Assembly (NCBI GenBank): GCA_002838815.1
Contig: LQGW01000052.1
Span: 1 to 64,000 of the forward strand
Length of the DNA: 64,000 nt
Source: Clostridiaceae bacterium JG1575
GTDB lineage: Bacteria > Bacillota > Clostridia > Clostridiales > Clostridiaceae
Direction: 5' to 3'
Program-made: the position numbers and the translations under genes
The notes under the pieces: generated by a model
What the model saw: only the letters and a program-made list of their open reading frames with translations
What the model was told of the DNA's origin: nothing
Database searches by the model: none
In this document: positions 35,453-58,732 of the stretch, piece after piece
Position numbering within the stretch: position 1 is the first letter of the stretch
Layout: every line of letters begins with the position of its first letter

Positions 35453-35487
35453 AAAAAAGATGCCCCGACGAATCGTGCATCTTTTTT
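35453..35487 (-). terminator. Riboswitch-controlled terminator in the thiW leader
   Basis: AAAAAAGATGC/GCATCTTTTTT on the minus strand, ending in T, between the TPP aptamer and thiW. It fits transcription termination on TPP binding. Confidence 0.8.
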
Positions 35488-35491
35488 GAAA

Positions 35492-35582
35492 GACTCCCTC
35501 CGTTGGCATAATCCAAATCAGGTCAATAGGTCGAAATCTCCATCGATTTCCTCTCAGCTTCGGATGAAAGCTCCCTAGTCCA
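35492..35582 (-). promoter_or_regulatory. TPP riboswitch (THI element)
   Basis: On the minus strand the conserved aptamer blocks occur in order: GACTAGGGAGC, GAAGCTGAGAGG, ACCTATTGACCTGATTTGG, ATGCCAACGGAGGGAGTC. These match the THI box core CTGAGA and ACCTGAT. The genes downstream are all thiamin genes. Confidence 0.93.
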
Positions 35583-35598
35583 ATTCTCATTCATTTGT

Positions 35599-56404: not shown

Positions 56405-57763
56405 CTATTTGCCTGAGAGGTTCAAGATGAGCCCGGCGATCTGAAAGAAGATGATTAAGGCGCTGGCATCCACGATGGTGGTGATGAGGGGGGCGGCCAT
56501 GATGGCGGGGTCCAGTTTGAATTTTTGTGCGATGAGGGGGAGCATTGAGCCCAAGACCTTGGCCATCATCACGACGGCCACTAAGGTCAAAGAAACGACG
56601 CTGGCGATGGCCACGTTGTGGTCGTACATCACATAGATGCGCCCGAAATTCACCGCAGCGAGGATGATGCCCACTACAAGGGAAATGCGCAGTTCCTTCC
56701 AAAGCACGGCAAACCAATCCTTGAATCGGATCTCATCGAGGGCCAGCCCGCGAATGATCATGGTGGAGCTTTGCGATCCGGCGTTTCCACCGGTATCCGT
56801 CAGCATGGGAATGAAGGAGACCAAGACCGGAATGGCAAGGAAGGCATGTTCATAGCGTTCCAAGATGCTGCCGTTGATCATCCCAGAGATCATGAGGATC
56901 AATAGCCACGTGAAGCGGTTTCGAGCCTGCTCAAAAACCGGGGTCTTTAAGTAGGGCTTCTCCGAAGGGGCCATGGCGGCCATACGCTCAAAGTCTTCCG
57001 TAGCCTCTTCCTGAGAGACATCGAGGACGTCGTCGATGGTGATGATGCCGACCAATCGCATTTCAAGATCCACAACGGGCAGGGTCAACAGATCATAGTC
57101 CGAAAATAGATGGACGATCTGCTCTTGGTCCGCCGTGGTGTAGGCGCTGATGACCACATCCTGCATCAGATCTGCAATGGGCGTTTCATCCGGGGCCAGC
57201 AAAAGGGTTCGCATGGAGAGCACACCCTCTAGGCGAAAATCCGGGGTGGTGATGTAGAGCGTGTAGAGGGTGACCTTGTCTTCGCCGTTTTCTCGGATGA
57301 ACTCCAAAGCTTCCCCGACGTTCATGTCTTTTCTCAATCGAATGAATTCGGAGGTCATGATGGACCCGGCCGAATCCTCGGGGTATTGCAGGTAGTGATT
57401 GATAGTGTTGCGGGTCTCGGGGGTCGCAAGTTGCAGCACCCGGGTGACGACGTTGGCAGGGAGTTCCTCCACCATATCCACCGCATCGTCGGTGAAGAGC
57501 TCTTCCACCATATGGCTGACTTCCGCATCGCTGAAGCCATTGATGAGGTGAGCCTGAGCTTCGGGGGAGAGGTCTGCAAAAACATCCACGGCTTTCTCTT
57601 TGGGCAACGCCCGAAACAATACGGCGCCTTTGCTTTGATCGAGTTCGTCGATGAGTTCCGCCACATCATTGGCGTGGATGTCTTCCAGCCAGAGCTTTAG
57701 ATGCTGGCTGTCCCTTCGTTGGAGGAGGTCCTCCAGCTGTTCCAAAAGATTTTTTTCTTCCAT
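56405..57763 (-). CDS. mgtE: Magnesium transporter MgtE
   Basis: MgtE, 452 residues, a Mg2+-selective channel gated by cytosolic Mg2+. N domain (ANDVAELIDELDQSKGAVLF), two CBS domains (about 132-250), the connecting helix, and five C-terminal membrane helices, including MLTDTGGNAGSQSSTMIIRG at the pore. The start is unclear: ATG 57763 gives the family-like MEEKNLLEQ, and ATG 57781 would add six residues. Neither has a good Shine-Dalgarno; AAAAGG touches the upstream ATG. This fits translational coupling to the leader ORF that overlaps the start. Confidence 0.93.
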   Translation of the reverse strand: MEEKNLLEQLEDLLQRRDSQHLKLWLEDIHANDVAELIDELDQSKGAVLFRALPKEKAVDVFADLSPEAQAHLINGFSDAEVSHMVEELFTDDAVDMVEELPANVVTRVLQLATPETRNTINHYLQYPEDSAGSIMTSEFIRLRKDMNVGEALEFIRENGEDKVTLYTLYITTPDFRLEGVLSMRTLLLAPDETPIADLMQDVVISAYTTADQEQIVHLFSDYDLLTLPVVDLEMRLVGIITIDDVLDVSQEEATEDFERMAAMAPSEKPYLKTPVFEQARNRFTWLLILMISGMINGSILERYEHAFLAIPVLVSFIPMLTDTGGNAGSQSSTMIIRGLALDEIRFKDWFAVLWKELRISLVVGIILAAVNFGRIYVMYDHNVAIASVVSLTLVAVVMMAKVLGSMLPLIAQKFKLDPAIMAAPLITTIVDASALIIFFQIAGLILNLSGK

Positions 57764-57921
57764 GGTTCTTCGACTTGGCATCCTTTTGAAGCAGCCCTGC
57801 CCATTGAGTGGGGGTCGTTCCCTTCAATGGGGCCTTTCTCGTTCCACCTAAGGGGGAGCGGGTCAGGGTCGGGCTCGGTTAACGGAACCGGGCTGCTCTT
57901 TGTTGGAGTTGTTGAGTTCAA
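57697..57921 (-). CDS. Putative MgtL-like leader peptide upstream of mgtE
   Basis: A 74-codon frame in the mgtE leader. It starts at TTG 57921, ten bases after AAAGGAG (57938-57932), and ends at TAA 57699-57697 inside mgtE in another frame. Residues 11-26 read PVPLTEPDPDPLPLRW. The EPDPDPLP core matches EPDPTPLP of enterobacterial MgtL in seven of eight positions. Acidic/proline stretches of this kind make ribosomes fall apart at low Mg2+ (intrinsic ribosome destabilisation), and MgtL uses this to turn on mgtA. The whole acidic/Pro stretch lies upstream of mgtE. It could still be a chance frame, since no homologues could be compared. Confidence 0.5.
   Translation of the reverse strand: MNSTTPTKSSPVPLTEPDPDPLPLRWNEKGPIEGNDPHSMGRAASKGCQVEEPWKKKIFWNSWRTSSNEGTASI
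57795..57838 (-). promoter_or_regulatory. Hairpin in the mgtE leader, downstream of the EPDP codons
   Basis: On the minus strand CCCATTGA and TCAATGGG form a perfect eight-pair stem enclosing GGG/CCC. It ends about 20 bases before the mgtE start and lies within the leader ORF, so a translating or stalled ribosome would affect it. It does not match the M-box Mg2+ riboswitch as far as I can see. Confidence 0.5.
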
Positions 57922-57986
57922 CGGACGCGCACTCCTTTCACTTAGTATGGTTTATGCCGTAAGTCTTGGCTTTCGGCTCCTTTTTG

Positions 57987-58014
57987 ATTCTATCACCCGG
58001 GCATTCTTTTGCAA
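57987..58014 (-). promoter_or_regulatory. Promoter of the mgtE leader transcript
   Basis: On the minus strand TTGCAA (58014-58009), 16-base spacer, TAGAAT (57992-57987) with a TG-A extended -10. It predicts a leader of about 200 bases. Confidence 0.6.
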
Positions 58015-58073
58015 GATAAGTTCAGGGGATCGACGATGAATAACCCCCTTTTTTACGCCGTTTGTTGAAAGGG

Positions 58074-58259
58074 TTAACCCCCGCCACGACGGTCAGGATC
58101 GTAGATGATGAGTGCCGTCGTTCGTCCTTCCTCTTCTGCTCCAATGCGCACCTCCAAAAGACTCTCTTGGGTGATGTGGTATTGCGCGAGGGCTTCTTGT
58201 ACACGCTCTTCAATGCTTTTTTGTCCCCGGGATACGGAGACGAGTTTGGTTCGCTTCAT
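58074..58259 (-). CDS. Small protein, possibly Cse60-like
   Basis: A 61-residue protein starting KRTKLVSVSRGQKSIEERV and ending in a Gly tail after TTALIIYDPD. The layout (strand, helix, strand, ending in an A-x-I-I-Y type strand) reminds me of the small Cse60/DUF2758 proteins, but this is weak. ATG at 58259 overlaps the stop of the ThrE-type gene (ATGA) with GGAG ten bases ahead, so it is coupled to the exporter. Confidence 0.6.
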   Translation of the reverse strand: MKRTKLVSVSRGQKSIEERVQEALAQYHITQESLLEVRIGAEEEGRTTALIIYDPDRRGGG

Positions 58260-58732
58260 CGCTTGCGGATCTCCTGGATTAATTTTTTGATGGATATGCG
58301 GCGCACGTTCCAATAAATGGACATGAGGGCCGAGGCAATGATGAGGCCAAGGGTAATGGCCGCGGAAAAAATGATGGTATTTAAAAATTGGGTGATGGCT
58401 TCGCTTTGTTCCCCGCGCACCGCAGCCAGAACCGAGTAATAAATGTTCGAGCCGGGGACTAAAGGGATAAAGCCGGGGATGTAGAAGATGGTAGCGGCGG
58501 TTTTCATTCGCCGCGCCATAATCTCAGAATAAAGGCCAGCCCCCAAGGAAGCGAGGAAGATGGCTACGGCGGGGCTGTGCAGCGCCAAAAGCACGCACTC
58601 GTAAATCAACCAAGAAATGCCTCCGCCTAAGGAAGCAAACAGGGCCTTGCGCCGCTCGATGTTGAGGAGGATGGCGAAGGAGAGGGTTCCCAAAAAGGCG
58701 AAAAGCACGCTCAGGAAGATGGTTTTCGGCAT
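58256..58732 (-). CDS. Threonine/serine exporter, C-terminal half (ThrE/YjjB-like, DUF3815)
   Basis: A 158-residue membrane protein with four or five helices. FASLGGGISWLIYE and the conserved IPGFIPLVPGSNIYYSVL are the family signature. It pairs with the next gene; together they equal the two halves of the ThrE-type exporter. The genes abut directly. Confidence 0.85.
   Translation of the reverse strand: MPKTIFLSVLFAFLGTLSFAILLNIERRKALFASLGGGISWLIYECVLLALHSPAVAIFLASLGAGLYSEIMARRMKTAATIFYIPGFIPLVPGSNIYYSVLAAVRGEQSEAITQFLNTIIFSAAITLGLIIASALMSIYWNVRRISIKKLIQEIRKR

Follow-up and report, generated by a model that had tools for sequence, protein, structure and literature searches.

A candidate family of Mg2+-transporter leader peptides in Bacillota and its possible divergent member before mgtE of Clostridiaceae bacterium JG1575

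In enteric bacteria, leader frames of Mg2+-transporter genes have been described that gauge ribosome performance by acidic and proline codons (mgtL and mgtQ, with corL related), and the parts of these accounts available to us give the following picture. The enterobacterial mgtA leader encodes MgtL, whose sequence includes EPDPTPLP (PMC8934632) and which acts through Rho-dependent termination (PMC11282234, PMC11552253); in E. coli, EttA-dependent synthesis has a reported limit of 30 residues for the acidic-proline run (PMC11282234), and corL of E. coli is described in PMC11552253. In the Salmonella mgtQ-mgtB leader, stem-loops 1:2 and 3:4 stand against stem-loop 2:3, where 3:4 covers the mgtB ribosome-binding site, and Asp2 and Glu5 of mgtQ are required for mgtB expression at low Mg2+ (PMC8092293). 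Other motifs, again as far as the available parts of the sources go, are an mgtE motif found in Thioalkalivibrio only (PMC11109978) and a corA motif of Gammaproteobacteria (PMC6429828). Here, we analyzed the leader of mgtE in a stretch of 64,000 nucleotides from Clostridiaceae bacterium JG1575 (contig LQGW01000052.1; hereafter, the window), where a frame led by a Shine-Dalgarno sequence (SD) and started by TTG encodes EPDPDPLP. A sequence-only reading had proposed an MgtL-like Mg2+ sensor at this place.

Our comparisons suggest that this frame is a divergent member of a regulatory leader-peptide family that precedes Mg2+-transport genes of Bacillota, and we give this reading a probability of about 0.58 on the sequence evidence. 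The search of the open literature, which covered neither subscription papers nor preprints, showed among the matches listed no report of a Met-Asp-x-x-Pro leader family before Mg2+ transporters; the sequence-only reading had known of no MgtL-like sensor for mgtE. If the family is real, a Bacillota family that shares the switch of the enteric leaders but serves unrelated transporters would imply that ribosome stability as a gauge of Mg2+ is either ancient or was invented more than once. It would also point to a mode of mgtE control in leaders that lack the M-box riboswitch, and leaders that have both would offer two sensors open to direct testing.

Met-Asp-x-x-Pro leader peptides before mgtE

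We gathered 182 mgtE leaders from 24 loci of one search, the loci of two more and 100 further listed places; 176 were distinct after removal of the window's own genome, and the 175 with sufficient upstream sequence contain 384 SD-led upstream open reading frames (uORFs) of 8-70 codons. With patterns formulated after inspecting the peptides, an SD-led frame of the form ^MD..P was found in 59 of the 175 leaders, as compared to 0/356 genes of the window's genome and 0/139 neighbour genes. The pattern ^M.{0,2}[DE].{1,3}P.P fits 53 of the 384 uORFs (41 leaders), compared with 3 of the 935 frames before the same 356 genes and none of the 150 before the 139 neighbour genes; for 53/384 vs 3/1085, Fisher p is about 1e-28, which is not a true probability because the leader sequences are related. 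The wider pattern ^M[DE].{1,5}P occurs in 72/175 mgtE leaders vs 19/356 and 2/139 control genes. An Asp at any of residues 2-4 in an SD-led frame (105/175 vs 75/356 and 17/139) was not counted as evidence by itself, because it is common in the controls too.

Typical peptides begin with MDSGPLP, MDSSPLP, MDPGPLP, MDPVPLP, MDYDPLP, MDFDPLP, MDSYPEP or MDTVPGRW, and typical leaders are also present in the window's family (MDASPLP in L039, MDESPLP in L115, MDTDPEP in L042, MDAEPSP in L050 and MDIDPGP in L051). DPxPLP is a recurrent core in some related mgtE leader peptides, and the window core, DPDPLP, is alike. The genes themselves were left out of account in a search of 393 genomes with the pattern GGAGG-N(3,10)-ATGGAY-N6-CCNYTNCC, which gave 12 matches (reversed control, 1), eight of them before mgtE; by eye, the other four are two integrase-like N-termini, one radical-SAM-like sequence and one other.

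The peptide also emerges when frames are picked by their RNA. Among 60 frames chosen by the helix at their start alone (z <= -3), Asp2 is present in 46, Pro5 in 41, Leu6 in 23 and Pro7 in 25, while Asp2 occurs in 7 of the 41 frames that lack such a helix (z > -1.5). The codons vary at the third base (Asp as GAT in 36 and GAC in 10; Pro5 as CCT in 28, CCC in 7, CCG in 4 and CCA in 2).

Of 40 scanned mgtE leaders with such a frame, 12 have an M-box (RF00380) on the upstream side of the leader peptide, and 13 of 40 loci scanned earlier, the paralogue among them, contain one; the peptide leader thus occurs both with and without an M-box. On the leader frames themselves, no Rfam family was found in the leaders scanned.

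Two further kinds of peptide were seen before mgtE. One, MD[LIS][CS]GRS[TSR] followed by K or N, occurs in L078, L079, L006, L010, L094 and L111 (in L003 as MKYRGRS) at positions of about -140 to -254; in L078 and L079 it runs on as MDSDVPLR and MDSGVPLR, and its carriers include some of the nearest relatives by mgtE identity. The other has PGR[SWCL] after an acidic residue (L163, L170, L181, L046, L083, L088, L097, L146, L164, L182 and L190), for example MDTVPGRWNIK, MDAYPGRC and DSAPGRST, with a faint likeness to PLRWNEK of the window.

Alternative helices and the genes that carry them

Across the 105 leaders whose frame has Asp within residues 2-4, the ribosome-binding site and start of the frame pair with sequence downstream (mean z -2.97; 76/105 below -2), and the partner lies about 45-65 nt further down in most class-A leaders. 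For SD-led frames ahead of 31 corA genes, z is close to 0 in most cases. We aligned 47 typical leaders (alignment A2); the selection started from 55 candidates picked for ^MD.{1,3}P and for position, of which eight were excluded by eye (L015, L043, L046, L093, L102, L163, L181 and L189); A2 and the covariance model built from it, R1, are therefore preselected on the peptide. The RNAalifold consensus of the 47 leaders is helix 1:2, with 12 pairs, seven of which show changes on both sides; it is 93.1% paired (shuffles, 84.8%) with a covariation of 0.499 vs 0.326. Two more helices, drawn after inspection of A2, are 2:3 (69.2% paired, shuffles 62.4%; covariation 0.310 vs 0.227) and 3:4, which lies over the mgtE SD (73.5%, shuffles 65.8%; 0.355 vs 0.243). 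The covariation of each of the three was reached by 0/500 shuffles and is lower when columns are slid by 1-3. Helices 1:2 and 3:4 together are mutually exclusive with 2:3. Helix 1:2 takes in only the first base of the Asp2 codon and leaves out Pro5 and Pro7.

A switch could be built from these helices as follows. In a typical leader, the ribosome-binding site and start of the Met-Asp-x-x-Pro(-x-Pro) frame (segment 1) can pair with the middle of the frame (segment 2), segment 2 can pair instead with segment 3 just before the transporter gene, and segment 3 can instead mask the transporter SD (segment 4). With ample Mg2+, the frame would be fully translated, 1:2 and 3:4 would form and the transporter would be off. 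With scarce Mg2+, ribosomes would fail at the early acidic-proline codons, occupying segment 1 but stopping short of 2 and 3, so that 2:3 could form and the transporter start would be freed and translated. The dependence on Mg2+ in this scheme is drawn from the mgtQ-mgtB precedent and from the genes controlled.

R1 was run blind to genes over 393 genomes of the class and gave 65 matches in 62 genomes at E <= 0.01, the E-values being rough. Of these, 54 lie before mgtE, and many of the 54 are training sequences (43, one more, and those of G110 and G194 assigned by coordinates, the remainder by sequence), and seven precede corA (in G442, G260, G193, G438, G398, G178 and G247); the four before neither gene (G011, G153, G015 and G150) have E of 6e-4 to 0.008. 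Among 249 phylum-wide genomes, matches were found in 13 at E <= 0.001. One is a training genome (G135), and the 12 held-out genomes belong to other classes of the phylum. All 12 held-out matches precede genes of Mg2+-transport type: five mgtE, three corA and four MgtE-fragment/Nramp operons, in which a gene for PRC-barrel/MgtE_N/CBS fragments is followed by an Nramp-family gene (seen by Pfam in G592 and G595; G688 and G561 were assigned by 94% and 97% identity to the first). The same MgtE-fragment/Nramp arrangement is reported in Mg2+-transporting relatives of Nramp and also in one manganese-type case, according to the available part of PMC4072509. The held-out peptides begin with MDPSPLP, MDSGPYS (two), MDSGPYN, MDSGPSPE, MDSGPEH, MDPGPSS, MDSGPEGG, MDDPYPG, MDGDPSK, MDADPSN and MDPLPQS, and over the 23 non-training R1 matches the start helix has a mean z of -3.0, with 14 below -2.

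We consider it very likely that a leader-peptide family exists at the level of the clade. Its peptides are probably switches that raise transporter expression when ribosomes falter for lack of Mg2+, by analogy with the enteric leaders. On balance, we favor the broader view of a widespread ribosome-based Mg2+ sensor of Bacillota, in which a Met-Asp-x-x-Pro peptide and a three-helix translational switch would precede three unrelated kinds of Mg2+-transport gene (MgtE, CorA and MgtE-fragment/Nramp), sometimes in series with an M-box, and of which the window would hold a divergent version without one.

Two single leaders are worth recording. The corA leader L294 (G251) has an SD-led frame, MKPDPLSRSCEE, with an SD of -11.6, and is possibly a further variant. 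In a sample of 47 genomes of the order, L295 (G460) is a new R1 match before mgtE in which the start of the leader frame and the motif are missing.

The leader of the window mgtE

The features of the window leader are collected in Table 1. The sequence-only reading had described its architecture well: a promoter-like site, the SD, the TTG-started frame of 74 codons, the stop inside mgtE in a different frame and the eight-pair hairpin after the motif codons are all there, and the promoter-like site is the sole one within 57300-58300 (shuffles average 0.4). The peptide begins with MNSTTPTKSSPVPLTEPDPDPLPLRWNEKGPIEG. Leader frames that overlap the transporter gene are found elsewhere too (L044, L135, L179 and L199).

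Table 1. Positions of leader features, mgtE and one further RNA element in the window
Feature	Position	Strand	Remark
Promoter-like site TTGCAA-16-TAGAAT	57987..58014	-	Extended -10 (TG before -10); consensus match only
SD of leader frame, GAAAGGAGT	57931..57939	-	-8.5 kcal/mol; spacing 9 to TTG
GCGTCC between SD and TTG	57923..57928	-	Predicted pairing with GGATGC (57783-57778) at the upstream mgtE ATG
Leader frame	57697..57921	-	TTG start 57921, stop 57697, 74 codons; contains TEPDPDPLPLRW
5' arm of long leader helix, GAGCAGCCC	57890..57898	-	Predicted fold
Codons 16-23, EPDPDPLP	57853..57876	-	Core DPDPLP at 57870-57853
Inner hairpin CCCATTG...CAATGGG	57799..57832	-	Eight pairs, 3' of motif codons; predicted fold
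3' arm of the same helix, GGGCTGCTT	57789..57797	-	Predicted fold; directly before mgtE start region
mgtE	56405..57763	-	Start ATG 57763 or ATG 57781; Pfam MgtE_N, CBS, MgtE
TPP riboswitch	35478..35587	-	67.8 bits

Five points argue for membership of the window leader in the family: DPDPLP before mgtE, the good SD of the frame, the weak SD of mgtE, the strong fold and the missing M-box. The claim that mgtE has no good ribosome site of its own agrees with SD strengths of -6.5 kcal/mol (ATG 57781, spacing 12) and -3.6 kcal/mol (ATG 57763), as compared to a genome median of -9.2 kcal/mol with 5.4% of genes weaker than -4 (331 mechanically called genes of a genome sample, the best start being taken for each). 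The predicted fold of the leader (57979-57740) beats 199 of 200 shuffles (z -2.83). The sequence-only reading had recognized no M-box and had named a good M-box match as a result that would refute it; Rfam scans found RF00380 neither in the leader nor in the whole genome; no Rfam family reached its gathering threshold on the leader, and a permissive scan gave only a chance-level snoRNA match on the opposite strand. The acidic-proline run (EPDPDP, residues 16-21) falls within the first 30 residues. In the window, the same logic as in typical leaders could apply with DPDPLP at codons 18-23, the 3' arm of the leader helix ending just before the mgtE start. In our estimate, the window leader is slightly more likely than not to act as a leader-peptide switch.

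A number of observations pull the other way. In the clade, 116 of the 175 mgtE leaders are without a ^MD..P frame, and L294 alone resembles the family among 30 corA leaders selected on Pfam score, so that corA carries such leaders only now and then. The four Nramp-type leaders show no significant start helix (z -0.2 to -1.1). Over codons 2-8, pN/pS is 0.52 in frame vs 0.85 and 1.85 in the other frames for leaders preselected for MD...P; unfiltered, it is only 0.86 (bootstrap 0.80-0.93; other frames 0.98 and 1.09), with about 1.0 over codons 9-30. These values therefore indicate constraint on the first residues that is modest outside the core. In the window itself, Asn and Thr take the places of Asp2 and Pro5; the motif starts at residue 16, not 2, with the TTG 17 codons before Asp18; and R1 matches neither the leader nor any other part of the genome. 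The duplex of the start region is not significant (z -1.4 to -1.8), simulated masking by a ribosome at the start or the motif barely alters the predicted access to the mgtE start, and by its codon usage, which is not coding-like, the frame ranks at the 1.2th percentile when set among real in-frame coding pieces. A second mgtE copy in the genome (L002), 65% identical to the first, has a short leader without an acidic-proline motif.

Close relatives add little to either side. Two same-genus genomes (one 87% complete) gave only matches of ~28-33% identity over parts of MgtE, and the best other MgtE relatives are ~50% identical in 98 genomes and 55% and 56% in further searches. Given same-genus genomes without this mgtE, a paralogue without the motif and codons that are not coding-like, the window alone cannot prove function. 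The proposal of an MgtL-like Mg2+ sensor before mgtE is well supported for the clade, where peptides, covarying helices and genes speak for it, and has less support in the window, where R1 does not match, the motif lies at codons 16-23 and the paralogue lacks it. We also aligned the window leader with that of the paralogue, which revealed no common motif and nothing convincing. Before the paralogue lies a 22-codon SD-led frame, MKSLLRKDRKERIGPTFERFIH (L002:1419-1487), which has no start helix (z 0.09), and the ATG there is without a good SD.

The strongest of the alternatives is that the window frame is a chance open reading frame in a GC-rich, structured leader, that mgtE is constitutive or controlled otherwise, and that the likeness to the clade is coincidental. 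The non-coding codon usage and the missing R1 match would suit such a frame. Its openness as far as mgtE is no evidence for a function, because 28% of dinucleotide shuffles are open as well, and a looser core, [DE]-x(1,3)-P-[LVIE]-P, occurs in 3 of the 356 gene leaders of the genome sample, the window's included. However, the strict core [DE]P-x-P-[LVI]-P stands before none of the other 355 genes, and DPxPLP recurs before mgtE in other genomes; the good SD and the leader fold also speak against chance. The run itself is rare: of 5000 shuffles, 0.4% gave ([DE]P)x2 and none gave ([DE]P)x3; in the genome sample, the 188 SD-led off-frame ORFs that precede 357 genes include no ([DE]P)x2 other than the window run; and a pattern for EPDPDP in which Glu is encoded by GAG has a single match in the 2.38-Mb genome, at this leader. 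We regard coincidence as unlikely, though it deserves the most weight among the alternatives.

A switch made of RNA only, either an Mg2+ aptamer of unknown type or an Mg2+-stabilized helix beside an incidental frame, would be compatible with the strong fold of the window and with the three covarying helices of typical clade leaders. It would not account for the peptide, since Pro5, Pro7 and Asp2 (apart from the first base of its codon) are not part of helix 1:2 and keep their identity despite third-base variation, and since selection of frames by the helix alone enriches Asp2, Pro5 and Pro7; nor was any Rfam family found on the frames scanned. We hold this explanation to be improbable.

The idea that the frame is the N-terminal part of MgtE, split off either through an error in the sequence or through programmed -1 slippage at 57756-57750, draws on the -1 offset of the two frames, a G-AAA-AAA-A run at their overlap and an in-frame upstream TTG in the paralogue, but is very improbable, because homologue matches start between residues 1 and 42 of the ATG-57763 protein, most of them in its first 30 residues, so that an extension of 50 residues is not expected, and because the codon usage of the frame is not coding-like. 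The phase of the seven-A run at the mgtE start would permit -1 slippage out of the leader frame and into that of mgtE.

Comparison with described leaders

Membership of the window leader in a Bacillota leader-peptide family, the reading that we prefer, can be set against four described systems. The M-box is likewise a Mg2+-responsive leader of mgtE and sits upstream of the leader peptide in some clade leaders, but it is an aptamer RNA and is found neither in the window nor in its genome. The uORF2/Rv1805A of Mycobacterium tuberculosis is, like the clade peptides, a short conserved uORF, there behind an M-box, with a conserved N-terminus and a proline 7 that is invariant in most peptides; it differs in belonging to mycobacteria and preceding PE/PPE genes, and the available part of the account does not mention destabilization (PMC12810186).

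The published parts on Salmonella mgtQ-mgtB that were available show the layout of typical clade leaders. A short frame with Asp2 and the same three helices recur in typical clade mgtE leaders, while the clade differs in its phylum, in its genes (MgtE, CorA and MgtE-fragment/Nramp in place of MgtB) and in its PxP core; the window leader fits this layout only loosely. Compared with MgtL, as far as the accounts at hand describe it, the motif of the window begins at residue 16 of a TTG-started frame rather than at residue 2, but both leaders share an acidic-proline run, in the window EPDPDPLPLR, with a Mg2+-transport gene downstream.

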